From assembly GCF_018383905.1 (NCBI RefSeq), contig NZ_JAGYWA010000005.1, positions 372,001 to 436,000 of the forward strand: DNA of 64,000 nucleotides, given 5' to 3'. Every line of letters begins with the position of its first letter. Position 1 is the stretch's first letter. Under the pieces are notes generated by a model. That model was given only the letters and a program-made list of their open reading frames with translations, was not told the DNA's origin and did no database searches. The stretch comes from Flavobacterium branchiicola. Lineage in GTDB: Bacteria; Bacteroidota; Bacteroidia; Flavobacteriales; Flavobacteriaceae. This document shows positions 1-20,320 of the stretch, one piece after another. Made by a program: the position numbers and the translations under genes.

Positions 1-3000
1 TGAAATTAAAAACACCTAAAGCTGGTGCAGCCTACAAGCCCTTAACAGGTACAATCATTTATGATGAAGGAAAACCCGGAGTGACCAATGTATATGCTTC
101 AAAACCATACGCGTGTTTTAAAGAAATTACAGATGAAGTTAAAGATGCTAAAGACGGTGTTTATACCGTAGCAGATATAATGACTTCTGAAGGAAAAGTG
201 ACACCAGGAGGTAATTCAGGTGGATGGTCTATTTTTGTAGTTTATAAAGATCCGTTATTACCAAACAAGTTTATCACAAGTTTTAATGGTTTTGGTATTA
301 TCAGAGCGAGTGATCCACCGTTGGTGATTCCTGTTTCTGGTTTTAGAACGAATCCGTTTGGAGATGTAAATGCAAAACTGGCTTTTGCTGCGTTAGAAGG
401 TGATGCTTCTTTAAAAGGAGACGGACTTAGTATACAAGGTGCTAAATCTGCAACAGCAGGTAATATTTCTTCACTGGTAAGACCAATTGCACCAGGTACT
501 CCAGGTACACCAAACTTTTTTAATAGTACAATTACCGATGGTGATGTTATTTTGGCGGGTCGTACCCCTGGGAGTATAAACACTTTGGGTTATGATACCG
601 GTGTAGTAAAAATTGACAATACAGGTAATACGATTATACAGAATAATGAAACAGATGCTAATCTTACGATTAACACTTCTCAGGATTCTTATTATATGTT
701 TTTTACTGCCTTATCAGTAGAAATTATTGCGCCAAAAATTGTATTGCGCAAAAATGTACTGGATACAAATGATAAAAATATCGGCGCTCAATCAGTAAAT
801 CTGGATCAGGAACTTCGATATGAACTTAAGTTTAAGAATGAAGGAAATGATAGTGCTAAAGGTTTTACAATTACCGATGTTCTCCCACAAAATGTAATTT
901 TTAATGGGCTTTCAGACATCATGGTGATGGATAAAAATATTACCGCAAGCTATGATGCTGCTACCAGAACACTTTTGTTTACAGTACCAGACTATATGGT
1001 AGTTTCTAAACAAGCTGGTGGTAGTGAGTATACCATTAAATTTAAAGTTCGTGTTGTAAAAGATTGTAATGAACTAGTTGATGCTTGTTCTAACGAGATT
1101 AAAAATACGGCAGTTTCTAAATATTTTGGGGTTTTAAATACAACCAAAGAAGGATTTGGAGAGGGTAGTTATTCAACAATATCTGAGTGTAATGTTGGAG
1201 AACCTACATCAACCAATTTCTTAGTAGGTATAGACAAATGTTTATTTAGCAGAGATGTTTCTTTATGTGGTACTGCTGTTTTAACAGCTGCGTTGGGTTA
1301 TACTACTTATGTATGGAAAGACCAAAACGGTGTTATTTTCGGTGGTAATAACAGACAGGTTACTGTAAATAAAGAAGGAGTCTATACCGTTGAGAATAGC
1401 GGTGCTGTAAATTGTAAACCAATTAAGCAGACTTTTAATGTAACGGACTACCTTAAAGGAACAATCAAAAATCCGATAAAAGGAGATAATATTGATCCTG
1501 CAACAGGAGAAGCTTATGGTTGCGTTAGGGATAAGAAACCTTTCCCAAAAATTTTCTTATGTGGTTTAAACGATAAGAGATTTATTGACACTAAAATTGT
1601 TGGTGCAACAAGTATTACATGGCAGGAAACAAAAGATGTACCGCCGGCAAGTGATCCTAATCCGGATAGCTGTCCTTACGAGGGAGCTACAAACTGGACT
1701 ACTTTAGCAACCGGACCTACATATACTGTTGACAAAGCAGGTGTATTTAGACTTTTGGTTAATTACGGTAACACTTGTGTGGTAATGCATTATTTTAATG
1801 TTTACCAAAACTTGCTTGATCCAAAAGCTGAAAAACAAGATATAATTTGTGATACAAAAGGACAAATTAGAGTTACAAACCCGCCAGAAAATTCAGGATA
1901 TGTTTATAGTCTTGACGGTATTAATTACCAACCTGAAAGTACTTTTAATAATGTTGCTGAGGGAAGTTACAAAGTTCAGATTAGACAATCTGAATTAATA
2001 AACGGTGTAATTTCTACATGTCCGTTTTTTGTAGATGTAGATGTTGAAAAGCTTGATTTAGTTACAAAACTAGAAGTTACAAATCCTATTTGTACAGGTG
2101 ATTTAGGTACTATCAAAGCTAATATTGAAAATGTTCCTGGTGATTATAAATTTATCCTTAGAAAAAAAGGAAGTACAGTTGAGATTGAAAACACTGGATT
2201 CATAAAAAATAATTATAAAGTATTCACGGGTGTTGAACCAGGTTTTAAGTATGAAGTTTTGATGTCTACGACTCACAATGGTTGTGCCGAGACTAAAGAA
2301 ATAGAAGTATTTGATTACCGTTTAACAGCTAGTGCTAAACTTACTAAAAACCTTTCTGCATGTGGTGACGGACAAATTACCGTAACTGTGACTGGAGGAA
2401 CTCCAAGACCAGGACCACCACCATATTATATGTACTATGTAAATGGTAATCCGGATTATTTTACAACTCCTGATATTCCTGTAACACTTGCAACTCTTCC
2501 TGCAGATGGAAAATACAATATTGTTGTAGTAGACGATAAAGGTTGTAAGGTTACTATACCTACAATCACTGTAGTTCCTATAGCAAAACCAACTATTACA
2601 GTTACTCCAAGTGAGGTTTTCTGTTATGGTGCAAATAGCGGAAACATCAAAGTAGATGTTACTCCGGCAGATTCTGGTTATACCGTTTCTTATAGCATCG
2701 ATGGTGTTAATTTTAACTCAATTTCACCAATTACCAATTTAACTCCTGGAGATTATTCTTTAATAGTTAAATATTCTTATGACAATGTAGAGTGCGTTGA
2801 TCCGGCAAGACCTGTTACGATCAAAGGCCCAGCTTTCCCGTTAACAGCTTCTGCAGGGGTTTCTGAACTGGCAGGTTGTGGATTGCCAGGATTTGAATAT
2901 CAGGGTAAAGTTAGAATTACTAATCCACAAGGTGGAACACCTTTTTATAAATATAGTTTCGACGGTCAAAAAACTTGGATTGATGAAAATGAAGCTTATG

Positions 3001-6000
3001 TTAATCCGGGAACACATACTTTATATATAAAAGATAGTAAAGATTGTATTTATGCAATGTCGGGTGTTGTTTTAGATCCTAAACCAGCCGACCCTACAAT
3101 AGCACTTGATCCAACCGTTTATAATTGTAACGGAACAGGAAAAACTACTGCAACTGTTACTAATAGCGGTGGTAAAAATTATACTTACGAGTACTATATT
3201 GATGGTAAACCAAATACACCAATTACAAATAATGTATTTGATAATGTAATTACAGGTTCTCACACAATATCTGTAAAATATAAGTTAGTCTCTGTTCCAA
3301 CGTATAGTAATTTATTACGTGAAGATTTCGGAACAGATTTATTTACTTACACAGCCACTTCATCTCCAGATGGATCTTCGCCTGGTATTAATCCTGCTTT
3401 TTGTTGGGAGCGACAAATAGAGGCTACGAAATGTAATGCTGATAGATTATTTGCTAATGGTGAATATACAGTTACGAGTAGTTTACGAAATAATCCTTAT
3501 CACGGGTGGCAGAATCCAATTGATCATACTAGTAATAGTAGAACTGGTGGTAGGTATTTAGCAGTTGATGCGGGTACTGCAATTCCAAATAACGCAGTTC
3601 TTTATAGAAAAACAATTAAAGATATTATTCCGGGGCAGCCTATTCAGGTTAAATTCTTTGCTACGAATTTATTGAAAGTAGGGAATCCACAACCAGATGC
3701 TTCTTTGACAGTTGAATTACAAAATGCTGCAGGAGTACCATTATCATCACAATCTACCGGAAAAATACCTAAAACTAATGGTTGGGTAGAATACAACAGA
3801 ACAATTGATCCGGGCAGCAACTCAACTTTAGATTTTGTATTGCGATTGGAAATTTCTCAAGTAGACGGAATCGATTTTGCTGTTGATGATATAGAAGTAT
3901 ATCAATTACCTAAATCATGTGTTACGGAGAAAAAATTCGATATTATTATTGATAGTAATAAAGCGTTTAAACCTTCAGAGCCTTTAGTTGATGATGCAAC
4001 TTGTAGCGATAAAAACGACGGAAAAATTACCTTAACAGTAGAAAATTTTGATACTGTAAATGGTTATAAATATTCGATTGATAATGGTGTAACATGGAAT
4101 ACAGCTACTGTTTCTCCATTTACTATTTCTGGATTAGGAAAAGGAATCTACAATGTTATTATTAAAAATGACGATGCAGGTTTATGTTCAAGCAGTTTCA
4201 GTAAAGAAATAAAAGCGCCGTTGACTCTTACAACAACAGCTAGTATTACGACGCCTCCAACTTGTAAAAAAGGAGCGTCAATTACAGCAATCCCAGGTGG
4301 AGGAACACCTAAATACCAATACGAACTACGTTTGGCAGATGGTATTACACCATACCGAGCTTTCCAGGATTTAGCTACATTTGACGATGTACCTGACGGA
4401 ACTTATACGGTAGTAGTACGTGATAAATCAACTTGTTCTTCTACGGCTTCAGATGTTGTAACGGTTACTTCACCTGTTAAGCCAACAATCGAATTGGATG
4501 TAACATCAGACTTATGTTATGATGTAGCAAACAAAGCGACTTTAATTGTTAAAGTAAATGGAGGAAAAGCTCCATTTAATTACAGTCTGGATGGTCAACC
4601 ATCTCAAAAAACTAATACATTTATAAATGTTGCACCTGGTACGCATTCAATTACAGTAATTGATGCTAATCTATGTGAGGCAGATGCTATTACAGGAATT
4701 CAAATTGGAAAACCAATAGTAGTAAATACAAAAGTTACTAAACCTATTGATTGTACAGGAACGCCTGACGCTGAAATTACAGTTACTGCAACAGAGGGAA
4801 TTGCTCCATATACTTATGAAGTTTCTACTGATGGCGGAACTACTTTTAACCCAATGTTAACTAATGTTTACAAAACACAAACAGTAGGAAGCTATATCTT
4901 TAAAGTTACAGATTCAAAAGGATGTTCTGCTACAGGTACAGCAGTTAATGTTGTTACTAAATTAGAGCCAACAGGTTCAATAGTAAGCCAAACAAATCCA
5001 AAATGTAATAATGATGCAAACGGACAATTTACAGTTTCAGGATCAGGTGGTTCAGGAGCTCCATATGAGTTTAGTTTTGACGGAGGTGGTTTTAGTACAA
5101 CTTCAACATATTCTAATTTAGATGCTTTCGTAGGTGCTGTAAACAGTAAAAAGTATACATATCAGGTAAAAGACAGTAAAGGTTGTTTGTCACCGGTTTA
5201 TGATGTTATTTTAAACAACCCTACAAAAGTAGAAGCTTCGGCTACATTCCCAGCCAATACAAATTGTAGCAGTACAGTTATCATTACATCAAAAGGTGAT
5301 GGTGGTTCTGGTACTTATACTTACAGTTTTGGCGGAAGCACAACTTATACTGGCGTAAATACATTAACAGTAACCCTTAAAGCTACTACACAGGATATTA
5401 CTTATTCTGTAAAAGATGCACAAGGTTGTATTGATACAGATAAAATTACAGTTCCGGCATTTAATGCGCCAACAAAAATTAATTTCTCTGTACCGGCAGC
5501 AATTACTTGTAACTTAACATCAACAAGTATTACATTGACTACTACTGGAGGTATTGCTCCATACAAATATGAAATTACAGCAGGACCGGTTACCGGAAAC
5601 AATACTACTGGTATATTTACTGGTTTAACTCCTGGAAGCTATTCATTTAAAGTAACAGACGCAAATGGTTGTTCTATTACAGATACTAAAACCATAAATG
5701 GTGCCACTACAATTTCTGCTTCAGGCTCAAAAACTGATGAATTATGTGTGGGTGACAAAAATGGTACAGCAACGTTTACAGTTAATGGTGTAAGTAGTAC
5801 AGGTAATTTCACATACACTTTAACACCAAATGCTGGAACACCAAGTCTTACAGGAAACGTAGTAACTTATACTGGTTTACCTTCAGGAACTTATAATTTT
5901 GAAGCTATAGACAAAACAACAGGTTGTAAAACAGATTCTGAAAAAGTAGTTATTGATGCTGCAACAGCTATCGATTTTACTGTTACAGCTTCAAAAATTA

Positions 6001-9000
6001 ACTGTTCAACTACAGTTTCAACATTAGATATTACTGGAATAACTGGTGGAAGACCTGGATATGAATATGCATACGCAGCGAGTCCGTCTACAGTTCCAAC
6101 AACAGCTTACGGTACAACTTTAAAAGTAGACACGGCAATTTTAACAACTTCAATTGATGTTTATGTTAAGGATTTAAACAATTGTTTTAAAAAGAAAACA
6201 GTTACTGTTTTAGCAGAAGACGCTCCTAAAATTGATCCTGTTGCAACACAATGTTATACTGGTACCCCAATTTCAGTAACTATTACTGGTACATATGTGG
6301 GAACAGCTACATTTAGTAAAGACGGAGTTAACTATGGTACATCTAATACTTTTAATTTAACACCTGGTACTTATACATTATCTTTAAAAGACGGTTTTGG
6401 TTGTCCTGCCTCAATTTCTTATACAGTTGCAGAAAAATTAACAATCACTCCTGAAGTTGTAGAAGATATTGCATGTACACCAAACACAACAATTAAATTA
6501 ACTTCTGCTGGAGGTACAGGAACACACACTTATGCGGTGTCGTTCAATAATGGTACTTATACAACAACTACAAGTCCATATACTGCGACAGTAGCAGGAA
6601 ATTATAAATTTAAAGTAACAGATTCTGCTAATCCTGCTTGTAGTGCAGAAACTGCTGTAATACCAGTTACTTTAAAACCAACTGTTTTAACTATTAAAGT
6701 AGATAAAACACACGTAAAATGTAATGGAGGTTCTACAGGTACTATTTTAGTAACGCCAACTTCTGGTAAAGCTCCATATACATATACTATTACAAGACAA
6801 GGTACACCAGCAACTGTATATACAGTGAATAACCCTTCAGGAGTAACTGAGGGAGTTTATGACATTGTAGTTAAAGACGCTATTGGTTGTGAGGTTACAG
6901 ATCAGGTAACTATTACTGAGCCAACGAAATTAGTTGTTACGGCAAATGCTAATCCGTTTACTTGTGATGTTACTAATACAAAACAAGGAACATCAGTTAT
7001 CATTGATTTACCAAATACAGGAACTGCTCCATATACCTACAGTTTTAATGGAGGATCGTTTACAGGTGTAAATACTTTACCAGTTACTGATAATGGTGCA
7101 GACCAAATTATTAAGTATGCTGTAATGGATGCTAACGGTTGTACTGCGTCAGGTCAATTAACAATAAACAAACTTGATCCGCCAAAAATTACAAAAGTAG
7201 ATGTAACTCCAATTTATTGTAATCCAGCAACTAGTCAGACTAGTACTGCGACAATTTCATTATCTAGAGCAATTTTACCAACAGATTCATTTGTAATTGT
7301 TGCTGGACCAGTAGTTAATACAACTGGTGCAACAACAGGTGTTTTCACCGGACTTACAGCAGGTAACTATACTTTTAGAGTTATTGCAGGTAATAAATGT
7401 TATGATGACTTCTTTAAAAATATACCTCCGGTAGATCCGTTTACTGCGATAGCGACAAAACTAAACGATGTGTATTGTTTTGCTACTCCAAAAGAAACTA
7501 CAGGAAATATCAGATATAATGTAGGTGGATTTAAAACAACATACAGCTATACCGTAAATGGTGGAACAGCTGTAACAGGTCAGACAGCAGCTATTTTTAC
7601 ATTGCCAAATCTTGGAGAAGGTAAATATGATGTTGTATTTACAGATGAAACAACATTATGTATTATTTCAACTTCAATTACAATTACGCAGCCAACAGAT
7701 GCTTTAACATTAACGGTTGATTCTAATAAAAATGCAAACTGTAAAGTTTCTACAGCGACTGTTACAGTTAGCGCGACAGGAGGTACACCAGATTACAAGT
7801 ACGCTTTTGTACAAAATAACGTAACTCCTTTAGATACAGATTATAAAGGATTAACAACGGTTAGTCTAAATCCGGCGATCACTACAGATTGGGATGTATG
7901 GGTTAAAGACAGCAAAGATTGTACTTACAAAGTAGATCTTAAAATTGCTATGGATACTAAACCAACAGTTACGGTTAAAGTACCAAATCAATGTACTGCA
8001 TCAGGAAATACATTCCAGATCGTAGCTACAGGAGCAGATGGAGTAGCACCATACACGTATTCAATTAGTACAGGTGCTGCACCAAGTCCGGCAGATACAT
8101 TTACAGTATCAGCGGGTACTTATACTATCACGGTTACAGATGCTAATGGTTGTACAGGAACTATTCCGGTTACGGTTTACGATGCTCTTGCAGTGCGTGC
8201 AGATCTTGATAAAGATTTAACTTGTACGGCTCTTGCACCGACAGATGCTACAATTACTGTAAAAGTTGTTTCTGGAGGAAAAGCCGGATTCAGCTATAAA
8301 GTAAAATTTAACGGAGGTGCTTATTCTGCAACAGGAACAGCTTTCGCCGGAACATCATTCCCTTATACAACTTCTGCAGCTGGTACTTATCAATTTGAAA
8401 TTACAGATGCAAATGGTTGTACAAAAGAAACTGCTGTAATTACAGTTTCTACGCCAGATACAGTAACTGCTTCTGCAACACCAAAAAATCCTACTTGTAA
8501 TGGTGATACAGATGGTTCTGTAACGCTTAAAGGACTTACAGGAGTTGGACCGTTTAAATATATTTTTAACGGAAGCGCTTTGTCAGACCAAACTGTTTAT
8601 GGTGGTTTAGCAGCTGGAACTTATTCTTACACTGTAAGAGATGCTAAAGGCTGTGAAATTATCGGTACTGTAACATTATTACAACCAGCTAAAATTGATC
8701 CGATTATAAAGCCATGGGGAATTACATGTAGTAGTACACAACCAGGTAGTATTGACGTATCGTTAAGCACTTCTTCAGGTGGTACTGCTCCGTTTATTTA
8801 TCATTTGTATGATAATAACATGAAAGAAATTGGGAGTTATACTGCCAATACAACAGCAGATGCAAATGCAGTTCATAATTTCCCAGCTTTACCTTTTGGA
8901 GATTACTACCTTAACATTGTAGATGCAAATGGTTGTAAGTTTGAGAGTAATGCAATAAGAATTGAGCCTCTTCCGTATTTGAAATTTAATGCACAAACTA

Positions 9001-12000
9001 TTGGAGCAAATTGTACCGATGGTGTTTCTGTTAAATTAGAAGTTACAGGTGGTACTGCGCCATTCATATATTCAATTTATGGTATTGGTACTACATCAGG
9101 TTCTACAACTGCTACTGATTATACATTTATTAAATTAGATCAAAATACAAAATACACTTTCTTAGTAGTAGATAGTGGTGGATGTCCATCTTATTTAGAT
9201 TATACCACAGGTAAAATTTCAGATGTTACCGTTACTGCTACAACAAAAAATGTAACTTGTTTTAATGCTGCAAATGGGGAAGTAACATTCTCTGTAAAAC
9301 AGCCGGGTGCAGGTGTTACTAACGTTTATTATGAGCTTAGAGATAATCTGACAAATAAACCATTTATTCCGGGTATTGATGGTACAACTTTACCGGCATC
9401 TCCGTTTGATGGTACAATTACCAATTTAAAACCAGGTAACTATACACTTTATATTAAAGAGATAGGTGGAACAATGTGTTCAACAACGACGATCTTCAGA
9501 ATCACAGAGCCAGCTTCTGAGCTTACTGCTGATTTTGATGGTATAGTAAACGCTAATTGCCGTAGTAATGCTTTTGTAACTATCAAGGCAAAAGGTGGTA
9601 CAGGTCCTTATACTTATGCTGCAGCACTTGCACCTACAGTGCCAAATCCTGGTGCTTTAGACACAAGTAATGTATTGGAGCTTCCTTATGATGCTGCAAC
9701 AAGCAATAACTTTAACATCATCGTTAAAGATGCAAACGGATGTACGTATCCTTTAACTTTAGTGATTACAAAAGACGAAAGCCCAATTATCGGTTTATCA
9801 GTGGCAAACAAATGTGCTGCTGAGGATAATTATGGAATTGTGGTAGCGCTAAACAATGTAGGAGTAACTCCATATGCTATAAAAGTGGATAGTGGTGATT
9901 TTGTAACTTATACAGGAACATTCCCTTATACTATTACAGGATTACATTCAGGAGATCATACAGTTACAATTAAAGATAAAAACGATTGTACAGATACTAA
10001 AACAATCAAAATTGATGCTCCGCTATTAGTAGTTCCAGAGATCATAACGCATCCTGATTGTGGTACAAGCAACGGAGAAATTTTACTAAAACCATCTGGA
10101 GGTTCAGGAAGTTATGCTTATAATATATTTCCACCAGATCCAAGTATAGTAATTACAGGAAATAGCATTACAGGTTTAAAATATGGTAAATATACCGTAA
10201 CAATGAGCGATGTTAACAATGTAGGTTGTTCAACTACAGCAGACTTTGAATTGAAAGAAGCAACACCAGTAACTTTTGATGCTGTTGTAACTCATCCTCT
10301 TTGTAAAACTGATGCCAACGGAACTATAACAGTAAACCTATTACCAGGTAATGACGAACCAACATATACGTATGTTATTACATCAGCGACTGCGACACCG
10401 CTTCCTATTGGAATTACACAAGCAGACAATGTGTTCTCTAATATTCCGGATGGAAAATATACTATTACAGTAACTTCTGGTAAAAAATGTTTTACATCTC
10501 ACACTTATGATGTTATTGAACCAGCAGTTGCTTTAGGAGCAAGTGTAGTGTTTAAAGATTTTGGATGTACTACAGGTTCTACACCAGATCAGGCAGTAGT
10601 AACAGTAACTGGTACAGGTGGAACAGGTCCTTATGCATATAATTTTGACGGAAGTGATATATACACTAATGTTAATAGTATATCGGTTAGTGCCAGCGCT
10701 TCAGCGCAAACAGTTAACTATTATGTAATAGATAAAAATGGCTGTAAATTCTCAGGTACTCAGAATATTGCTGGATTCATACCATTAGATGATATTAAAT
10801 TTGATGTAACAACAGCACCAACGTGTCCGTTAAAAGAAACTACTATTACATTAACAGTAGTTGGAGGATATGCAATTTCGAAATACGAAATGATTTCTCC
10901 GGTTTACAAGGATAACGGAACTTCTGCAGTATTTGCAAACTTAACAGCAGGTAACTACATGTTTAAAGTTACAGATGCACGTAATTGTTCTATTGAGAGA
11001 CCTTATAAAATTGAACCTCTTAATCCAATTGACATTGTTAAAACTTCTTCACTTAATGTGAGTTGTAACACAGCAAACGGAACAGATAACAATGGAGAAG
11101 CTACATTTACAGTGTCAAGTTTCAGCGCAAGCGGAAATTATGATGTTGTTGTAACAAGTACACCGGCAGCATTGCCATACAATACGCCAACAATTGCAAC
11201 AGGTGTTACAGCAGATGTTATCACTGTAACAGGATTGGTACAAGGAACGTATACAGTAACAGTAACAGACAAAACTACATTATGCTCAAAAGGCGATAAT
11301 GTCACTATTACTATGCCGGCAGCAATTGATTTTACACCAAATGCTACGACAGTATATTGTTCTCAACAAGATTCTCAAATTACCGTTACAGGTATAACAG
11401 GAGGTACACCAAATTATAAATATGCAGTAGTTAAAGCAGGAGATCCAAAACCAACAACTTTTGGAGATATTAGTGTACCAGTTACAGTAGCGACAGCTTT
11501 AACTGATTTAGATTGGGATGTTTATGTACAAGATGCAAATGGTTGCGTTTCGTTAGCGAAAACAGTATCGGCACAATACGATGCAGCACCAGTTCTTAAT
11601 GTACCGGCTCAACAATGTTTTAAAGGTACAGATATCACAATTGATTTTGCTGATGCTTTAATCTCTACAACGTACAATGGTAATAAAACATTTACAGTAA
11701 ATGGTTTAGCAACAGGAAGCAGCATCACATTTAAAGATGCTGGAAAATATACAATCGTTCTTACAGACGATCATGGTTGTTCAGCTACAATCGATTATAT
11801 TATTGAAAAAGAATTAACGGTAAGCGCAACAATCAAAAAAGAATTGTTCTGTACAGGTGCAGTAGATGCAATAATTGATGTTGAAATAAAAGGTGGTAAA
11901 GGATCCTACCAATATCAAATGTACTATAATGGTGCTGTGTCAGGTGGTGTAACAAATACCGCTGGTGATTTTAGTGTATCAGTTAGTTTAGCTGGAGATT

Positions 12001-15000
12001 ATCATTTCGAAATTACTGATAGTAATTCACCAGTATGTCCGGCAGTGAGTTTGCCGGTTACAGTTGAAGCTCCGGTAATACCAAAATTAACGCCATCACA
12101 AATCAACGTGAAATGTTTTACTGATAGTAATGGAGAATTAACAGTGGTACCTAGCGATGGTGTTGCACCATACACATTTACAATTACAGGTCCAGTTAAC
12201 CATACAGGTGACACAAGCGGAACTTATACAGGTTTAAAAGCTGGTTTTTATGATGTAACAGCAACAGATGCTAAAGGATGTTCTAATACAGTTAATATAG
12301 AAATTACGGAGCCTAAAGAACTTACTGCTGATGCTGCATTCCCGCCAAATACTACTTGTAGTATTGCAACGGTAATTACCGTAACAGGTCACGATGGTAC
12401 ACCAACAGGTATAGGAACCGGATATTATTATAACTTTAATAATACAGGTTATGATACCGTAAATACATTTACTGTAAATGACGATGATAACGGTACAGTT
12501 CAAACAGTTTGGTATACTGTTAAAGATAAAAATGGTTGTGAAACAGCTCCACAATCAATAGTTGTTCAACCATTAAACAAACCATCTGCTCTATCATTCG
12601 CAGCAACAGCAGTTACATGTGCAGCGGCTACAAGCGATGTTACAGTGACGGCTACAAATGGTGTAGGAGCGTTAGAGTTTAAGATTATCGAAATTAATGG
12701 AGTTACAGGTACATATACTGCGATTTCAACAACAGGAAATGCAGTTCCGGCTGTATTTACAGGATTATTACCTGGTGACTATAAATTTATGGTAACAGAT
12801 AGTAATGGTTGTTCTTATACTGATTCATTTACAGTAAAAGATGTAGTTAAAATCCAGACAACTGGTCAGGCTACAGATAAAACTTGTGTTTACACAGATG
12901 ATGGAACAGCAACATTTACTGTTTCTGATTTCGAAGGAACGTACACATATACAATTACTAAAAACACTGGTACGCCTTCGGCTCCAGTTACAACATCTCT
13001 TACTGAAATTGTTTTAACAAACTTAACAATAGGAGATTATAAAATTAGTGTTGTAGATGATGCTACACAATGTCCATCAGAATTTACGGTGACTGTAAAA
13101 GACCCAATTGCGGTAACAGTTACAGAAGAAGGAAATGTTAATGCAAATTGTACGACTTTCGCAACTGTTACAGTTGCTGGTCATGGAGGAATAGCAGATT
13201 ATACCTATTCATTTGTTCCTGCAGGGGCTCCTTATGGTACATTTACAGATGAGGCAACAAGAAAATTAAATCCGGCAACAGCAGCATGGTATGTTTATGC
13301 TATGGATCAAAAAGGATGTATTTCTGCTCCTATAACAGTAAACATTACAACAGATCCGTTACCAGCAGGATTTACTGCAACGGTAACAACACAATGTGCT
13401 GATGCTTTAGGTAATTACGAAATTGTAGTTACTCCTGGTACAGGAATGGGACCATTTACTTATAGTATTGGTGGTGGATTCCAGTCAGAATTAGAATTCA
13501 TTGTAAAAGCACCTGGAACTTACGATTTAGTAGTTAAAGATAAATTTGGTTGTCCATTTACATTTACTGCAGCGGTAACAATTTTACAACCAGTAGATTT
13601 AGTTATTGATAGTAAAGTATTGCCAACTTGTAAAGATGGTGACGGAGAAGTAACAGTAACTGCAACAGGAGGAACTGGAAACTTTAGCTACACTATTGAT
13701 GGAGGTATAACAGTTACAACAACACCGGCAGTATTTGATAAGCTAACAGCTGGTTCACATACAATTATAGTGACCGATTTAGGAGCTAATAACTGTACGG
13801 ACAAAGTGACGTTTGAATTAAAAGCTGCAACTGAAATTACAGGATTTAAAGTAGTTGCTACTAATGTTTCATGTTTTAATGGTAACGACGGAACTATTAC
13901 GGCAAGTTTAGATCCAACAAGTGATGGAGTAAACGATAACCCGATTTACATGTACAGTATTGATGGCGGAACACCTCAGGATGATCCTGTATTTAAAGGA
14001 TTAATAGCTGGAGATTACATTGTAAGTGTAATTTCAGGAAGAGGTTGTACTGATGATTTCCCGGTTAAAATTACACAACCAGATCTTATTGTAGTTCCAA
14101 CTCCAGATGTGGTTCAATATCTATGTACTACTGATAATGTAAGCAACTTTGCAACTATTACAGTAAATGGTGTAACCGGTGGTACAAAAGATTATACTTA
14201 CACATTTATCAAAGCCGGAACACCAACTCCTGTGTACGTAGGACCTAGAAATTTCTATACAGAAACAGATTATGCTGGTGGAACTTATACTATAACCGTT
14301 ACTGATCGTAATAACTGTTCAGGTGCTGCTGTTGGAACATTCACGATTGATCCATTTATTGCGATGGATAAAGTAGTAATCGATGTAAACCAACACATAA
14401 CTTGTGCAGTTAAAGAAAACATTACAGTAACTGTAAAATCAAAAGCAGGTGTTAATGTACCGGGTACATTCAAGTACACACTTACAGGAATTAACGGAAC
14501 TGTATATGGACCGATTGATACCACCGATGGAATCTTTACAGGTTTAGAAATTGGTAATTATTTAGTTACAGTTTTAAATACAGTAACAGGATGTACAATT
14601 CAGAATGTTCATTTCATCTCTGATCCAAATACATTTGAGATCCAAGCCGTTCCTGTTGCAAGTAAAATTTGTTATGGAACTAGTGATGGTAAAGTAGTAT
14701 TAACTTTTGTTGATAATCAACTTAATCCGAGCAATGACGCAGGAGCATTCGATTATACAATTACAGGGGTTACGGCTACTGGTCCGGTTACGCTTACAGG
14801 ATCAACAACAGATGCAGGTCCATTTGAAATTGGAAGCCTTAAAGCGGGGACATACAATGTTATTGCTAAATTAAAAGGAACACCAACATGTGAAGTAACA
14901 ACTGTATTTACAATTGACCAACCAACAGCAGAGCTTATAGTGACAAAAACACAATCAGAAATTACTTGTCTTGCAGGTAATAACGATGGAGTAATTGTAG

Positions 15001-17198
15001 CTTCAGCAACTGGAGGATGGCCAGGTCAATACTTATACCAATTAGTAGATGCTACTACTAATGCTGAAGTTAGACCATACAGCGCTTCACCAGTATTTGA
15101 CAAATTAATGGCTGGAAACTATAAAGTGAATGTTATAGATGGTTTCGGTTGTATAGCCTCTGTTAATGCAAGTTTAGTTAATCCAACACCAATTAGTATT
15201 ACAATTAGTGCTACACCAATGCTTACTTGTTTCGACAACGAAGACGGAGTACTAACAATCAATACAATCAATGGTGGTTCAGGAAACTATATCTATACAC
15301 TACACGGTGTATTGGTAGACGGAACTGTAATTACAGCTAAATCACAAGGAGCAAAACAGTTTACAGATCTTAAAGCAGGAACATATTATATTACTGTAAA
15401 TGATAGCTGGACTTGTACAAACGATTCTAACAAAGTAACTATTGCAGAGCCAGCATTGGTAAAAGCAACGGTGGAAATTTTCTCAACAGAAACTTGTAAA
15501 AATCCACCGGTTATTATATTGAGAGCTTCAGGCGGAACACCACCTTATACGTATAGTGCTGATGGAATTAACAACTTAGGAACATTTGCTTCATTTACTA
15601 CTATTACATTGCCGGTGACAAATGCTAAAACAGAATACAAGTATTTTGTACAAGACTCAAAAGGATGTAAGAGCTATGTGTCTAACACTACAGAATTCTT
15701 ACCAGTTCCTGAGTTAGGATTCGAGCGTGAAAGCAAAATTGATATTAGATGTAAAGGAGGTTCTACAGGATCTATTACTGTACTTGCAAAAGGAGGTTTA
15801 GGAAACTATATCTATACGTTACAAAATGGTGCAGGAGTAAATATCACTCCGGCTCCGGTACAAACGACGCCAGGTTCATTTACAAATTTACCTATCGGTG
15901 ACTACATTGTAAAAGTAACAAGCTTAGATTGTTCTGTGCCATCAATGTTATTCAAGTTAACAGAACCAAATGCTCCATTAGAAGCAACAGCAGTTCCAAC
16001 TGATTTAACTTGTAACGGATTCAATAATGGTAAAATAACAGTAAACGCTAAAGGCGGAACAGGAATTTATAAATACGCTATTGAGCCGGAATTTAGACAG
16101 TTCTTTGATAAAAACGTATTCGAAAACCTTAAACCAGGATTCTATGATATCTTAGTTCAGGATGAAAACGAATGTTATATCTTCCTTAAAGATGTTGAAG
16201 TAAAAGAACCAGGATTGCTTATTGCAACCGAAATTCCAAACTCAATGATCCCAGAGGTATGTGTTGGAGACAAAAACGGTGCATTCAGTATTGAAATCAC
16301 TGGAGGAACAGCTCCTTATACAGAAAGTCTGGATAACGATAAAGGACCTTACCTTCCGGTAACAGGAAACACAAGAGACTATACAGGTCTTACAGGAGGT
16401 ATGCATACCGTTTACATTATCGACAGTAAAGGATGTACTAGCGAAGTAGTAATCGATATGCCATTACCGGTAGTACTTGATCCAACTGCTGAAGTAAATT
16501 ATGACTGTGTTGACAATAAAGCGGCAAACAGAGTTACAATTACGGTAGACGAAAGCATTACAGACCTTTCAGAGGTAGATTACCAATTGGATGGTACAGG
16601 TGCTTTCCAGACAAGTAACATCTTCATCAATGTTGCTCCGGGTAATCACTTCGTAGTGGCGAGACATACAAACGGTTGTGAAGTGCCAACGGCAAGTTTC
16701 AACATCATTGGATATGAGAAATTAGTATTATCATTATCTGAAGAAAAAGGAGTTTGGAATGTTATTACAGCTACAGCAGTAGGTGGAGGTGGTGACTATA
16801 TGTACAGTATTGATGGCGGAAGCTTCACTACAGAAAATAAATTTAAAATTTACAAAACAGGTACATATACAATCACAGTAAGAGACAAAAACGGATGTAC
16901 AGATACTAAAGAATATTTCATTAAGTATGTAGACGTTTGTCTTGACAATTACTTTACTCCAAACGGAGATGGTGTTTACGATACTTGGGGACCTGGTTGT
17001 ACAAATATTTACAACAACCTTGAATTCTCAATCTTCGACAGATACGGTCGTGTAATTGCTAAATATCACTATGGTCAAAAATGGGACGGAAGATACAATG
17101 GAGAGGAATTACCTTCTGGTGATTACTGGTATGTTCTTAAACTAAATGATGAGAATGATGGAAGAGAGTTTGTTGGACATTTCACTTTATACAGATAA
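1..17198 (+). CDS. sprB: SprB-type giant gliding adhesin, 5' end outside window
   Basis: This is a cell-surface adhesin exported by the type IX secretion system. In gliding flavobacteria SprB is carried along the cell surface by the gliding motor. The reading frame is open from base 3, so the start and signal peptide lie upstream; 5,731 codons are visible, and Flavobacterium johnsoniae SprB is about 6,500 residues. Visible order: a DUF11-like beta-sandwich (about 735-1130), two Ig-like Cys-containing segments (about 1250-1810), several dozen SprB repeats of roughly 80-105 residues, a non-repeat jelly-roll-like insert (about 3306-3915), then a type B C-terminal sorting domain starting near 16936 with the motif YFTPNGDGVYDTW. 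The next gene is sprF, the SprB-specific secretion partner, which supports the name over other CHU_C-domain adhesins. Long minus-strand frames inside it are shadows. Orthology to SprB is inferred from size, repeats, sorting domain and neighbour. Confidence 0.9.
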   Translation, partial: KLKTPKAGAAYKPLTGTIIYDEGKPGVTNVYASKPYACFKEITDEVKDAKDGVYTVADIMTSEGKVTPGGNSGGWSIFVVYKDPLLPNKFITSFNGFGIIRASDPPLVIPVSGFRTNPFGDVNAKLAFAALEGDASLKGDGLSIQGAKSATAGNISSLVRPIAPGTPGTPNFFNSTITDGDVILAGRTPGSINTLGYDTGVVKIDNTGNTIIQNNETDANLTINTSQDSYYMFFTALSVEIIAPKIVLRKNVLDTNDKNIGAQSVNLDQELRYELKFKNEGNDSAKGFTITDVLPQNVIFNGLSDIMVMDKNITASYDAATRTLLFTVPDYMVVSKQAGGSEYTIKFKVRVVKDCNELVDACSNEIKNTAVSKYFGVLNTTKEGFGEGSYSTISECNVGEPTSTNFLVGIDKCLFSRDVSLCGTAVLTAALGYTTYVWKDQNGVIFGGNNRQVTVNKEGVYTVENSGAVNCKPIKQTFNVTDYLKGTIKNPIKGDNIDPATGEAYGCVRDKKPFPKIFLCGLNDKRFIDTKIVGATSITWQETKDVPPASDPNPDSCPYEGATNWTTLATGPTYTVDKAGVFRLLVNYGNTCVVMHYFNVYQNLLDPKAEKQDIICDTKGQIRVTNPPENSGYVYSLDGINYQPESTFNNVAEGSYKVQIRQSELINGVISTCPFFVDVDVEKLDLVTKLEVTNPICTGDLGTIKANIENVPGDYKFILRKKGSTVEIENTGFIKNNYKVFTGVEPGFKYEVLMSTTHNGCAETKEIEVFDYRLTASAKLTKNLSACGDGQITVTVTGGTPRPGPPPYYMYYVNGNPDYFTTPDIPVTLATLPADGKYNIVVVDDKGCKVTIPTITVVPIAKPTITVTPSEVFCYGANSGNIKVDVTPADSGYTVSYSIDGVNFNSISPITNLTPGDYSLIVKYSYDNVECVDPARPVTIKGPAFPLTASAGVSELAGCGLPGFEYQGKVRITNPQGGTPFYKYSFDGQKTWIDENEAYVNPGTHTLYIKDSKDCIYAMSGVVLDPKPADPTIALDPTVYNCNGTGKTTATVTNSGGKNYTYEYYIDGKPNTPITNNVFDNVITGSHTISVKYKLVSVPTYSNLLREDFGTDLFTYTATSSPDGSSPGINPAFCWERQIEATKCNADRLFANGEYTVTSSLRNNPYHGWQNPIDHTSNSRTGGRYLAVDAGTAIPNNAVLYRKTIKDIIPGQPIQVKFFATNLLKVGNPQPDASLTVELQNAAGVPLSSQSTGKIPKTNGWVEYNRTIDPGSNSTLDFVLRLEISQVDGIDFAVDDIEVYQLPKSCVTEKKFDIIIDSNKAFKPSEPLVDDATCSDKNDGKITLTVENFDTVNGYKYSIDNGVTWNTATVSPFTISGLGKGIYNVIIKNDDAGLCSSSFSKEIKAPLTLTTTASITTPPTCKKGASITAIPGGGTPKYQYELRLADGITPYRAFQDLATFDDVPDGTYTVVVRDKSTCSSTASDVVTVTSPVKPTIELDVTSDLCYDVANKATLIVKVNGGKAPFNYSLDGQPSQKTNTFINVAPGTHSITVIDANLCEADAITGIQIGKPIVVNTKVTKPIDCTGTPDAEITVTATEGIAPYTYEVSTDGGTTFNPMLTNVYKTQTVGSYIFKVTDSKGCSATGTAVNVVTKLEPTGSIVSQTNPKCNNDANGQFTVSGSGGSGAPYEFSFDGGGFSTTSTYSNLDAFVGAVNSKKYTYQVKDSKGCLSPVYDVILNNPTKVEASATFPANTNCSSTVIITSKGDGGSGTYTYSFGGSTTYTGVNTLTVTLKATTQDITYSVKDAQGCIDTDKITVPAFNAPTKINFSVPAAITCNLTSTSITLTTTGGIAPYKYEITAGPVTGNNTTGIFTGLTPGSYSFKVTDANGCSITDTKTINGATTISASGSKTDELCVGDKNGTATFTVNGVSSTGNFTYTLTPNAGTPSLTGNVVTYTGLPSGTYNFEAIDKTTGCKTDSEKVVIDAATAIDFTVTASKINCSTTVSTLDITGITGGRPGYEYAYAASPSTVPTTAYGTTLKVDTAILTTSIDVYVKDLNNCFKKKTVTVLAEDAPKIDPVATQCYTGTPISVTITGTYVGTATFSKDGVNYGTSNTFNLTPGTYTLSLKDGFGCPASISYTVAEKLTITPEVVEDIACTPNTTIKLTSAGGTGTHTYAVSFNNGTYTTTTSPYTATVAGNYKFKVTDSANPACSAETAVIPVTLKPTVLTIKVDKTHVKCNGGSTGTILVTPTSGKAPYTYTITRQGTPATVYTVNNPSGVTEGVYDIVVKDAIGCEVTDQVTITEPTKLVVTANANPFTCDVTNTKQGTSVIIDLPNTGTAPYTYSFNGGSFTGVNTLPVTDNGADQIIKYAVMDANGCTASGQLTINKLDPPKITKVDVTPIYCNPATSQTSTATISLSRAILPTDSFVIVAGPVVNTTGATTGVFTGLTAGNYTFRVIAGNKCYDDFFKNIPPVDPFTAIATKLNDVYCFATPKETTGNIRYNVGGFKTTYSYTVNGGTAVTGQTAAIFTLPNLGEGKYDVVFTDETTLCIISTSITITQPTDALTLTVDSNKNANCKVSTATVTVSATGGTPDYKYAFVQNNVTPLDTDYKGLTTVSLNPAITTDWDVWVKDSKDCTYKVDLKIAMDTKPTVTVKVPNQCTASGNTFQIVATGADGVAPYTYSISTGAAPSPADTFTVSAGTYTITVTDANGCTGTIPVTVYDALAVRADLDKDLTCTALAPTDATITVKVVSGGKAGFSYKVKFNGGAYSATGTAFAGTSFPYTTSAAGTYQFEITDANGCTKETAVITVSTPDTVTASATPKNPTCNGDTDGSVTLKGLTGVGPFKYIFNGSALSDQTVYGGLAAGTYSYTVRDAKGCEIIGTVTLLQPAKIDPIIKPWGITCSSTQPGSIDVSLSTSSGGTAPFIYHLYDNNMKEIGSYTANTTADANAVHNFPALPFGDYYLNIVDANGCKFESNAIRIEPLPYLKFNAQTIGANCTDGVSVKLEVTGGTAPFIYSIYGIGTTSGSTTATDYTFIKLDQNTKYTFLVVDSGGCPSYLDYTTGKISDVTVTATTKNVTCFNAANGEVTFSVKQPGAGVTNVYYELRDNLTNKPFIPGIDGTTLPASPFDGTITNLKPGNYTLYIKEIGGTMCSTTTIFRITEPASELTADFDGIVNANCRSNAFVTIKAKGGTGPYTYAAALAPTVPNPGALDTSNVLELPYDAATSNNFNIIVKDANGCTYPLTLVITKDESPIIGLSVANKCAAEDNYGIVVALNNVGVTPYAIKVDSGDFVTYTGTFPYTITGLHSGDHTVTIKDKNDCTDTKTIKIDAPLLVVPEIITHPDCGTSNGEILLKPSGGSGSYAYNIFPPDPSIVITGNSITGLKYGKYTVTMSDVNNVGCSTTADFELKEATPVTFDAVVTHPLCKTDANGTITVNLLPGNDEPTYTYVITSATATPLPIGITQADNVFSNIPDGKYTITVTSGKKCFTSHTYDVIEPAVALGASVVFKDFGCTTGSTPDQAVVTVTGTGGTGPYAYNFDGSDIYTNVNSISVSASASAQTVNYYVIDKNGCKFSGTQNIAGFIPLDDIKFDVTTAPTCPLKETTITLTVVGGYAISKYEMISPVYKDNGTSAVFANLTAGNYMFKVTDARNCSIERPYKIEPLNPIDIVKTSSLNVSCNTANGTDNNGEATFTVSSFSASGNYDVVVTSTPAALPYNTPTIATGVTADVITVTGLVQGTYTVTVTDKTTLCSKGDNVTITMPAAIDFTPNATTVYCSQQDSQITVTGITGGTPNYKYAVVKAGDPKPTTFGDISVPVTVATALTDLDWDVYVQDANGCVSLAKTVSAQYDAAPVLNVPAQQCFKGTDITIDFADALISTTYNGNKTFTVNGLATGSSITFKDAGKYTIVLTDDHGCSATIDYIIEKELTVSATIKKELFCTGAVDAIIDVEIKGGKGSYQYQMYYNGAVSGGVTNTAGDFSVSVSLAGDYHFEITDSNSPVCPAVSLPVTVEAPVIPKLTPSQINVKCFTDSNGELTVVPSDGVAPYTFTITGPVNHTGDTSGTYTGLKAGFYDVTATDAKGCSNTVNIEITEPKELTADAAFPPNTTCSIATVITVTGHDGTPTGIGTGYYYNFNNTGYDTVNTFTVNDDDNGTVQTVWYTVKDKNGCETAPQSIVVQPLNKPSALSFAATAVTCAAATSDVTVTATNGVGALEFKIIEINGVTGTYTAISTTGNAVPAVFTGLLPGDYKFMVTDSNGCSYTDSFTVKDVVKIQTTGQATDKTCVYTDDGTATFTVSDFEGTYTYTITKNTGTPSAPVTTSLTEIVLTNLTIGDYKISVVDDATQCPSEFTVTVKDPIAVTVTEEGNVNANCTTFATVTVAGHGGIADYTYSFVPAGAPYGTFTDEATRKLNPATAAWYVYAMDQKGCISAPITVNITTDPLPAGFTATVTTQCADALGNYEIVVTPGTGMGPFTYSIGGGFQSELEFIVKAPGTYDLVVKDKFGCPFTFTAAVTILQPVDLVIDSKVLPTCKDGDGEVTVTATGGTGNFSYTIDGGITVTTTPAVFDKLTAGSHTIIVTDLGANNCTDKVTFELKAATEITGFKVVATNVSCFNGNDGTITASLDPTSDGVNDNPIYMYSIDGGTPQDDPVFKGLIAGDYIVSVISGRGCTDDFPVKITQPDLIVVPTPDVVQYLCTTDNVSNFATITVNGVTGGTKDYTYTFIKAGTPTPVYVGPRNFYTETDYAGGTYTITVTDRNNCSGAAVGTFTIDPFIAMDKVVIDVNQHITCAVKENITVTVKSKAGVNVPGTFKYTLTGINGTVYGPIDTTDGIFTGLEIGNYLVTVLNTVTGCTIQNVHFISDPNTFEIQAVPVASKICYGTSDGKVVLTFVDNQLNPSNDAGAFDYTITGVTATGPVTLTGSTTDAGPFEIGSLKAGTYNVIAKLKGTPTCEVTTVFTIDQPTAELIVTKTQSEITCLAGNNDGVIVASATGGWPGQYLYQLVDATTNAEVRPYSASPVFDKLMAGNYKVNVIDGFGCIASVNASLVNPTPISITISATPMLTCFDNEDGVLTINTINGGSGNYIYTLHGVLVDGTVITAKSQGAKQFTDLKAGTYYITVNDSWTCTNDSNKVTIAEPALVKATVEIFSTETCKNPPVIILRASGGTPPYTYSADGINNLGTFASFTTITLPVTNAKTEYKYFVQDSKGCKSYVSNTTEFLPVPELGFERESKIDIRCKGGSTGSITVLAKGGLGNYIYTLQNGAGVNITPAPVQTTPGSFTNLPIGDYIVKVTSLDCSVPSMLFKLTEPNAPLEATAVPTDLTCNGFNNGKITVNAKGGTGIYKYAIEPEFRQFFDKNVFENLKPGFYDILVQDENECYIFLKDVEVKEPGLLIATEIPNSMIPEVCVGDKNGAFSIEITGGTAPYTESLDNDKGPYLPVTGNTRDYTGLTGGMHTVYIIDSKGCTSEVVIDMPLPVVLDPTAEVNYDCVDNKAANRVTITVDESITDLSEVDYQLDGTGAFQTSNIFINVAPGNHFVVARHTNGCEVPTASFNIIGYEKLVLSLSEEKGVWNVITATAVGGGGDYMYSIDGGSFTTENKFKIYKTGTYTITVRDKNGCTDTKEYFIKYVDVCLDNYFTPNGDGVYDTWGPGCTNIYNNLEFSIFDRYGRVIAKYHYGQKWDGRYNGEELPSGDYWYVLKLNDENDGREFVGHFTLYR
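1818..16900 (+). repeat. Tandem SprB repeats within sprB
   Basis: Tandem protein repeats of the SprB-repeat family. Each has a Cys shortly after its start followed by Gly/Asn-rich GxI or GxxT, then GG.xPYxYS, a GxY stretch near the end, and a closing DxxGC. They have diverged in DNA sequence, so this is a protein repeat and not a recent DNA tandem array. The series is broken once, near 3306-3915, by an unrelated domain. I estimate around fifty units from length divided by period; I did not align them. Confidence 0.85.
3306..3915 (+). other. Non-repeat jelly-roll-like domain inside sprB
   Basis: About 200 residues that lack the SprB-repeat pattern. It opens with LREDFGTDLFTY and ends with DGIDFAVDDIEVYQLP, an ending typical of carbohydrate-binding or MAM-like jelly-roll domains in Bacteroidota surface proteins. 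It lies between repeats on both sides and could be a ligand-binding module. The fold assignment is inferred from these short signatures only. Confidence 0.5.
16936..17198 (+). other. Type B T9SS C-terminal sorting domain (CHU_C family)
   Basis: The last roughly 87 residues begin CLDNYFTPNGDGVYDTW and contain LEFSIFDRYGRV, the paired WDGRYNGEELPSGDYWY block, and a final FVGHFTLYR. This is the gliding-motility-associated type B sorting domain (TIGR04131) that directs export by the type IX system and needs a SprF-like partner, which is encoded next. Confidence 0.93.
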
Positions 17199-17241
17199 CA
17201 GATTAGAGCCCCAAATTATGTTATCTAAAAAATTTATTACA

Positions 17242-18216
17242 ATGAAAAAGTTTATTTTATCCTTAGTACTCATGGCTGTAACAACAAGTTACAGCCAAGA
17301 GCTAAACCTACCGGTATTTACGCAGTATTTAGCTGATAACCCTTTTGTACTTTCACCTGCTTATGCAGGTATTGGAGACAATCTTAGAATTCGTGCAAAT
17401 GGACTTACACAATGGGTTGGGATTAAAGACGCACCCGAAAACCAGTCGTTATATGCTGATTTCAGGATTTTAGATCGTTCGGGAGTTGGACTTTCTGTTT
17501 ATAATGATAAAAACGGATACACAAGACAAACAGGTGCCAAGATATCTTTTGCGCACCACCTTATTTTGAATTATTATTCAAAGCAATACCTGTCTTTTGG
17601 TATTTCGTATAACTTCAATAGTTTTAGAATCGATGTTGATGAATTCAATAATACAATAGAACATCCTATTCTGGATCCGTCGGTTACAGATAATCGTTAT
17701 ACAGCAAATAACAACTTTGACATTAGTGCTTTGTACCGAAACAAGAACTTCTATTTAAGTTTCAATGCCAATAACGTATTAAAGAAAAACACTGATAAAT
17801 ACCGTGGAGTTGAGCCTAACTTGCTTTCCAATTATCAGGTTTACACCGGAATTGTTTTAACTGATGGTGAAAACAGACGTATCGAGTACGAACCATCTGT
17901 TTACTACCAGTACTTTGCCAGTGATAAACGTTCTACAACCGATTTCAACTTCAAATACAGACGTTACAATCGTTACGAAGATTATTATTGGATTGGAGTT
18001 TCGTACCGTTTCTTAAACGATCAATTTCCAAAACCATTATCAGTTGGGCCAATGGCTGGTTTCATGAAATCCAGATTTTACTTCGGATATTCTTATCAGG
18101 TTATGTTCAACGATCTTGGAAACTACAATACAGGTACTCATTCAGTAACTATAGGTTTTGATTTCTTGCAGTCAATAAGTAATTGTCCTTGTACGCAGAG
18201 TCCGGTTCACGACTAA
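17242..18216 (+). CDS. sprF: PorP/SprF family outer-membrane secretion partner
   Basis: Outer-membrane protein of the PorP/SprF family. In F. johnsoniae, SprF is needed for secretion of SprB to the cell surface. The chosen start gives 324 residues beginning MKKFILSLVLMAVTTSYSQ, a clean signal peptide cleaved after SYS. Longer in-frame starts at 17146 (inside sprB) and 17218 exist but would put extra residues in front of the signal peptide. Family traits seen: LPVFTQYLADNPFVLSPAYAG just after the signal, many alternating beta strands, and QSISNCPC near the end. It lies 43 bases after the sprB stop on the same strand, so the two are almost certainly cotranscribed. Function is inferred from family and position. 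Confidence 0.9.
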   Translation: MKKFILSLVLMAVTTSYSQELNLPVFTQYLADNPFVLSPAYAGIGDNLRIRANGLTQWVGIKDAPENQSLYADFRILDRSGVGLSVYNDKNGYTRQTGAKISFAHHLILNYYSKQYLSFGISYNFNSFRIDVDEFNNTIEHPILDPSVTDNRYTANNNFDISALYRNKNFYLSFNANNVLKKNTDKYRGVEPNLLSNYQVYTGIVLTDGENRRIEYEPSVYYQYFASDKRSTTDFNFKYRRYNRYEDYYWIGVSYRFLNDQFPKPLSVGPMAGFMKSRFYFGYSYQVMFNDLGNYNTGTHSVTIGFDFLQSISNCPCTQSPVHD

Positions 18217-18377
18217 TCAAGATGCAAAACCATTTTTAAAGGCAAATAAGCCCTTATCATAAAGCGAGTCGCAACATTATGTGTTTTTACCGCAATAATT
18301 TGAAATAAACTGGCAATAACATTAAATTTGAATACTATCAATTGTACCTTCAAAACGATAGCGATCAAATTCGATTT

Positions 18378-20170: not shown

Positions 20171-20320
20171 AATTTTTACTACAAAACAAACTTTTTCTTT
20201 CGTTCACCGCATAAATTTTAGCCTTTACCTCAAACTTTTCTGAACGCTGTAATTTCTAATAATTTTACTTGAAAATAACTGTTAATCATTCAATTGAAAT
20301 AACATTTAAATCAAAAAGAA

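Follow-up and report, generated by a model that had tools for sequence, protein, structure and literature searches.

SprB, a protein of ~6,500 amino acids (aa), is the main adhesin of gliding in the Bacteroidota, and its reported filaments (~150–200 nm) fall short of the length of the extended chain. We analysed the sprB locus of Flavobacterium branchiicola in a stretch of 64,000 nucleotides (nt; hereafter, the window) taken from contig NZ_JAGYWA010000005.1, positions 372,001 to 436,000 (G000:C40:372001-436000 in our numbering), of a 5.43-Mb genome that is 99.75% complete. The SprB protein encoded there contains two arrays of repeat modules whose sizes appear to be matched, a conclusion that is well supported within Flavobacterium, and the matched arrays offer a concrete and testable answer to how the chain folds, which part of it touches the surface and why the filaments are so short.

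Published accounts give the length of the SprB filament as ~150 nm (review PMC13104615) or ~200 nm (PMC12635249). The SprB sorting domain is reportedly sufficient to route other proteins along a helical path (PMC12618676), and in F. johnsoniae residue C343 of GldK is reported to form a disulfide bond with the carrier SprF (PMC12635249). Grappling hook protein A (GhpA; 5,898 aa; PDB 9flp and others) of Aureispira resembles SprB in being a very large surface protein of the type IX secretion system (T9SS) built from related Ig-like modules. It differs in that each of its 8 PDB entries contains seven chains (56 in all) and in that, according to a review (PMC11205867), its hooks are heptamers of a T9SS-secreted protein and serve to catch prey; GhpA is not known to ride a gliding track. 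The central modules of the SprB analysed here matched GhpA best by sequence profile (E 1.7e-48), and GhpA was also the best fold match of the SprB centre, as a local match with a template modelling (TM) score of 0.19 over the query.

Like the F. johnsoniae system, the one of this genome has SprB-repeat modules, a type B sorting domain, a SprF tail with Cys-x-Cys and a GldK cysteine, and the gene order is the same. A single open frame on the forward strand spans window positions 3-17198 (sprB, 1..17198, +). Its ATG lies at C40:371613, 388 bases upstream of the window, and the full product has 5,861 aa, with residue r beginning at window position 3r-390. The frame contains 20 matches to the SprB repeat (PF13573, E ≤ 0.001) and ends in a type B T9SS sorting domain (16941..17198 with the stop codon, +), which was recognised by both PF13585 (CHU_C; 57.1 bits against a cut-off of 27) and TIGR04131 (92 bits against a cut-off of 35). 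The first-pass annotation, made from the letters of the window, had called a giant SprB-repeat frame with such a domain and assigned it to the gliding adhesin locus; the first part is borne out, and the assignment is supported by operon order, repeats, sorting domain and orthology with the contig named F. johnsoniae CI04. The comparison with F. johnsoniae SprB suggested there gave 62.4% identity to the CI04 protein over 5,782 aligned residues (77–78% at the N-terminus), and this protein has 57 modules too. The gene itself belongs to a known gliding system; novel here are the seven-module unit and the matched arrays, neither of which was mentioned for SprB in the titles and abstracts of the open-licence literature searched.

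The repeats, which the first-pass annotation had put at several dozen, were counted with a module profile grown from the 20 Pfam matches, which settled over six rounds at 57 modules of ~85 aa each; a broader module profile again gave 57. At the threshold yielding this number, 60 reversed or shuffled SprB proteins produced 9 module matches in total. Module similarity was above chance at lags of 7, 14, 21 and 28 modules (z = 6.0, 5.4, 6.6 and 4.2, respectively; 2,000 permutations of module order), and of 51 modules, 34 had their best partner a multiple of seven places away. Among 26 proteins, 22 had their strongest lag at a multiple of 7; the exceptions were G130 and G033 (lag 3), G098 (lag 9) and the broken G121 (numbers with G denote genomes). 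At the DNA level no tandem repeat was found in the window sprB, and the copies of five direct-repeat families of at least 30 nt match at only 64–86%. Collapse of repeats in assembly was rejected as the origin of the length pattern described below, given that the units of this gene are too diverged and that the 85- and 99-module cases include the single-contig genomes G103, G267, G417 and G428.

Along the window (all on the forward strand), the module chain begins with an N-side flank of modules 1–11 (1839..5255), interrupted between modules 6 and 7 by a non-module insert of ~237 aa (about 3282-3992). It continues with an N-side array of modules 12–25, equal to two seven-module units (5256..8720), seven central modules 26–32 at the exact middle of the chain, the proposed distal tip (8721..10556), a C-side array of modules 33–46, again two seven-module units (10557..14138), and a C-side flank of modules 47–57 (14139..16925). 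Both flanks keep a constant number of modules in proteins of different length class. Flanks were delimited by the module profile and a flank control, arrays by the similarity of modules i and i+7 together with the path method, and the centre by the centre test, the last two of which are described below.

To compare module numbers, 95 SprB frames were examined (our own, those of relatives and those of 69 further genomes), 7 of which run off their stretch or contig, leaving 88. The spacing of ~290 residues that marks the insert after module 6 was present in 72 of the 88. In 68 of these 72, the number of modules after the insert was 23 (n = 4), 37 (n = 17), 51 (n = 32), 65 (n = 9), 79 (n = 5) or 93 (n = 1); with the six modules before the insert, the totals are 29, 43, 57, 71, 85 and 99, that is, 29 + 14k. 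Some proteins show a weak additional module at the N-terminus, which is set aside when the counts are anchored on the insert; by a cruder counting rule 62 of 87 proteins fall on 29 + 14k directly, while most others have one module more. The four insert proteins outside the classes have 22 (G038), 40 (G178), 45 (G335) and 10 (G121) modules after the insert. G038, with 28 modules, follows the 29-type path less one module; G335 has a 29-type core plus three-module loops; G178 has masked letters and a broken path; and the G121 protein (2,290 aa) has a frame interrupted by a stop in a stretch with unknown bases.

The same quantisation is visible in plain protein lengths. None of 117 frames of at least 3,000 aa (one per genome, E ≤ 1e-115) was 5,000–5,750, 6,150–6,950 or 7,400–8,100 aa long; a wider listing adds frames of 5,338 aa (G033) and 6,744 aa (G344), both of the other layout without the insert. 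The first-pass annotation had proposed that repeat number differs between strains and may set adhesin reach or ligand range. Between species it does differ, from 28 to 99 modules across 87 proteins, and filament reach is a plausible trait of repeat number, but the variation is not free and proceeds in steps of 14 modules, seven per array. The length rule is shown for Flavobacterium only; a SprF match at E ≤ 1e-60 was present in 92 of 148 genera.

The 14 modules of a step are divided equally between two places. Class averages of the similarity between modules i and i+7 showed two separate arrays flanking a non-repeating centre, each growing by seven modules per class. In the path method, each protein was matched to a 57-module reference with the same cost for every jump, so that seven was not favoured; the changes in the N and C halves were equal in all 36 in-class proteins of other lengths, namely -14/-14 (n = 4), -7/-7 (n = 17), +7/+7 (n = 9), +14/+14 (n = 5) and +21/+21 (n = 1). 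This count stayed at 36/36 with jump penalties of 0.35, 0.5 and 0.8 and fell to 35 at 0.2 and 32 at 1.2. Within the 57 class, all 32 proteins were matched to others of their class without a jump. The centre test, which uses no path model, placed the seven central modules at the exact middle of the chain in 68/68 proteins, with a 57-class reference (36 proteins from another class) and with a 43-class reference (51 from another class). As a control, blocks from the flanks lay at a constant distance from their own end in 36/36.

The 68 in-class proteins all have a central part flanked by two repeat arrays of the same extent. The two arms are unlike in kind: in 65/68 proteins the C arm is the more acidic. 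Modules of the two arrays are similar when both arrays are read in the same direction; palindromic (mirror-order) similarity of modules was not seen. Rotational phase, with 14 modules making one turn, was rejected as the sole cause of the steps, since it would permit 14 extra modules in one array; in the 71-module proteins the change is 7 + 7 in separate halves in 9/9, though one jump of 14 costs less. In the 16 proteins without the insert, the N and C skips were equal in 14 and off by one module in G396 and G344. One of the equal 14, G033, also has further large jumps that resist reading, and six of the 16 carry three-module loops near the C end.

Unless the two diverged arrays are spatially matched, it is difficult to see why their unit counts should be kept equal. 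According to the published work on F. johnsoniae, SprB would leave through the T9SS bound to SprF, SprF would be disulfide-bonded to GldK in the moving track, and the filament would be dragged on a helical path, the cell advancing when it grips the surface. With the C-terminus held on SprF, the simplest arrangement for spatially matched arrays would be a hairpin whose middle lies farthest from the cell. We favour, with modest confidence, the explanation that SprB is such a fold-back filament rather than one extended string, its middle forming the tip. The N-side and C-side arrays would lie side by side in opposite directions with both chain ends near the cell, and the seven central modules would form the distal bend and contact region. 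Lengthening would then occur only by one seven-module unit per arm, and reach would be set by k in 29 + 14k (here, k = 2). For the fuller version, in which two antiparallel matched arms carry the most variable modules at the tip and reach evolves by one unit per arm in 14-module steps, we hold the chances to be evenly balanced.

Several observations fit a fold-back. The ends are conserved and the middle is diverged in one close pair of proteins, conservation in the 57 class is lowest over the seven modules centred on number 29, the midpoint of the chain, and the C arm differs in kind from the N arm by its greater acidity. An Ig-like module is ~4 nm long, so that ~64 modules would measure ~256 nm extended and ~128 nm folded; the reported filament lengths of ~150 and ~200 nm are both shorter than the extended chain. 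A comparable working principle is known from streptococcal antigen I/II adhesins, in which repeats on either side of a central domain pair into a long stalk that carries this domain at its tip. By this analogy SprB may work alike, although the antigen I/II stalk is made of a helix and a polyproline strand, is anchored to a Gram-positive wall and is not known to be related to the SprB modules. If the fold-back is true, the middle rather than the N-terminus would be the tip, the filament length should follow half the module number, and sprB would be a clean natural case of two arrays in one gene kept equal by selection on shape.

A number of results weigh against folding back. Paired arms appear in no structure or contact map, and an AlphaFold2 model of 13 central modules (23–35), of which the scores rather than the coordinates were read, was fair (predicted local distance difference test, pLDDT, 81.7; predicted TM score, pTM, 0.53). 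In the 32 proteins with 57 modules, a weak test showed no increase in covariation between mirrored modules (i + j = 58) in either length or charge. The least conserved stretch is off-centre in the other classes (module 26 of 29, 25 of 43, 46 of 71 and 81 of 85), perhaps from array homogenisation in the 29, 71 and 85 classes. The reported 200 nm suits neither the folded nor the extended length well, the ~4 nm per module in this estimate being approximate. With a 43-module reference the path method was clean in only 31/51 proteins, because, by our reading of the jumps, C-side units then land on N-side units. For one pair of different class, G207 with G351, the best path makes just one jump, of 14 modules, and this lies in the N half. 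Seven proteins (G387, G421, G328, G320, G335, G344 and G130) consist of a 29-type core plus a single three-module array near the C-terminus, a one-sided expansion by up to about 16 copies (in G130); if SprB is a hairpin, this array would form a stalk beneath the fold that has no partner.

The SprB of F. johnsoniae UW101 also counts against equal arms. It is longer than the window SprB (6,497 aa by its published length), and PMC9950754 places an antiserum peptide at residue 3,627. In several 57-module proteins this peptide fits reference module 32 best, at residues 3,564–3,622, and is followed by 2,278–2,297 residues, as against 2,870 in UW101 by the published length. UW101 SprB is thus probably composed of two N units and three C units, that is, with one extra C-side unit, unless a unit was lost in assembly. 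This arm count is derived from the published length and the peptide position, not from the UW101 sequence, and the mapping by a single peptide is uncertain, as it scores higher at module 18 in our own protein and at module 46 in G096. The case for a fold-back is confined to one genus, has one probable exception in the literature and draws on sequence.

The same equality of arms would be obtained if they were matched between molecules, the N array of one chain lying against the C array of another in an antiparallel dimer or higher oligomer. The seven chains per entry of GhpA, the closest solved relative, and its heptameric hooks in the review cited above, speak for association between chains. 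A parallel bundle like that of GhpA, though, gives no reason for equal arms, and it is difficult to accommodate two antiparallel chains on one cell when, on the published account, the SprB C-terminus is tethered to the outer membrane via SprF. We regard pairing between molecules as improbable.

A similarly low probability attaches to an origin with no structural pairing, in which symmetric middles are exchanged between species or a mutational process changes both arrays at once. Exchange itself is likely, as the middle diverges far more than the ends between the close relatives G006 and G049: similarity is 0.82–0.92 for modules 1–6 and 0.83–0.91 for the last four, and 0.12–0.21 for modules 33–38. 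Given this, the number of changes of length class required by parsimony on the trees of the N-terminus (25), the C-terminus (24) or both (23) overstates their independence. The tree of nine central modules, that is, of the centre itself, still needs 18 length changes, or 16 with nodes under 0.7 to 0.95 support left unresolved. In G428 (99 modules, on a 5.1-Mb contig), the N array contains four 1,740-nt units with successive identities of 1.000, 0.995 and 0.972 and the C array four 1,782-nt units with 0.999, 1.000 and 0.990, as against 0.28–0.32 outside; these near-identical copies, four per array, indicate that in this single-contig genome the two sides hold the same number of young copies. 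No DNA process is known to us by which units in the two arrays would be duplicated simultaneously. Among the 12 different-class pairs with the closest N-termini, net jumps were equal in the two halves in 11 by our reading. G049 (71 modules) and G079 (85 modules), for example, have a mean module similarity of 0.80 throughout and differ by one unit in each half.

Quite unlikely, too, is an arch without pairing, in which the chain, fixed to the cell surface by its two ends, would form a loop with the middle uppermost and with arms that are similar without touching. Conserved ends with a diverged middle in the close pair, and the lack of mirrored covariation in the 57-module proteins, would both be expected of it. 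A loose arch would tolerate a difference of one unit, however, and none was found in the 68 in-class proteins; to our knowledge, there is also no anchor for the SprB N-terminus. That SprB is an ordinary adhesin with repeat number varying freely between species and setting reach only is highly improbable, for although module number does differ between species, the empty length intervals among the 117 frames and the position of the centre at the chain middle in 68/68 proteins speak against free variation.

As an observation on the history of the gene, G006 and G049 SprB are closely alike at the ends and far more different in the middle, as if the middle had been swapped as a cassette, and the SprB middle may be exchanged between species.

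The N-terminal region of SprB (residues 1–742; 1..1838, +, with its first 388 bases outside the window) is beta-rich and Ig-like or DUF11-like, with profile matches to DUF11 and RrgB_K2N_iso_D2. A sequence search of this region against the PDB gave no match at E ≤ 0.01, and an AlphaFold2 model of residues 1–760 (pLDDT 81.5, pTM 0.65) had PDB fold matches to general Ig-like proteins only.

The PorP/SprF gene that the first-pass annotation had placed 43 bases after sprB was confirmed as sprF (17242..18216, +), with a likely ATG at 17242, 43 bases past the sprB stop, and its end at 18216. It encodes an outer-membrane carrier of 324 aa with a PorP_SprF domain (236.3 bits against a cut-off of 22.3) and the tail SNCPCTQSPVHD, which includes a Cys-x-Cys motif; no match to SprF was found in the PDB by sequence at E ≤ 0.01. 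Cys-x-Cys was present in all 19 complete SprF tails, our own included (G105 and G032, without a complete SprF, are outside this count). GldK of this genome has two cysteines 58 residues apart, a pair resembling C285/C343 of F. johnsoniae GldK, plus one near the N-terminus. Given this SprF tail and the conserved cysteine of GldK, the published mechanism, in which the SprF carrier is disulfide-tied to a moving GldJKN track, is taken to apply to this locus on sequence grounds.

Directly upstream of sprB on the same strand are an SprC-like gene (485 aa) and an SprD-like gene (1,635 aa), the two neighbours for which the first-pass annotation had suggested looking upstream as a check on its assignment; their presence speaks against the refuting case that it had named, a neighbourhood lacking both. 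The SprD-like protein combines an N-terminal PorP/SprF domain with a long Ala/Lys coil, and genes of 150, 430 and 135 aa precede the SprC-like gene on the same strand. The resulting order of seven genes agrees with that of the F. johnsoniae operon, and the order in the contig named F. johnsoniae CI04 is identical to that of this locus. sprC, sprD and sprB follow each other in 25/25 relatives or named loci (10 relatives, 4 named loci and 11 further relatives), the SprC-like frame being more than 2,000 aa long in G130 and G033. Close SprB N-termini were found in the contigs named Flavobacterium sharifuzzamanii, F. tistrianum, F. oncorhynchi and F. johnsoniae CI04.

PorP/SprF-family carriers also stand beside type B adhesins in static systems of the PorP–PorE type, and a split of type B adhesins into static and mobile ones has already been proposed in print (PMC12618676). 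This genome encodes 12 PorP_SprF proteins, of which one is SprD, three end in Cys-x-Cys and eight end in SPRFF. The static type B carriers end in SPRFF without a cysteine and are followed by an OmpA-like gene (by eye) in 8/8 cases, whereas SprF has Cys-x-Cys and lacks an OmpA-like neighbour. The OmpA-like protein (about 643–721 aa, by eye) follows 0/3 of the Cys-x-Cys carriers, which are SprF, one orphan and one beside a 454-aa adhesin-like protein (besides sprF and sprD, the PorP_SprF loci are C10:348864-349733, C7:14739-15614 and eight others). Carriers that ride the track may be marked by the cysteine motif. Another two large SprB-repeat proteins of this genome (C42:60476-64534 and C20:159486-163370; frames of 2,185 and 1,631 aa) have no adjoining PorP_SprF gene. 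In F. johnsoniae, three orphan substrates share Fjoh_1677 according to PMC12618676, and by analogy the carrier-less proteins may use the orphan Cys-x-Cys carrier.

Downstream of sprF, the interval up to pgk contains genes at window positions 18342-21073 for a LytS-like kinase, a LytTR response regulator and a dioxygenase. The same genes were found in this place in G079 and G083, and no match to them in the 13 other relatives in which both sprF and pgk were seen. On the other side of sprB, sprD (L009:14570-19477, on C40) contains ~37 copies of a 51-nt tandem repeat coding for the Ala/Lys-rich coil, which has no cysteine. Open SprD frames among relatives range from 1,010 to 1,912 aa, the shortest of which is followed by a ~2-kb gap before sprB and may be broken; the sprD repeats seem variable, while the sprB repeats of the window are diverged.

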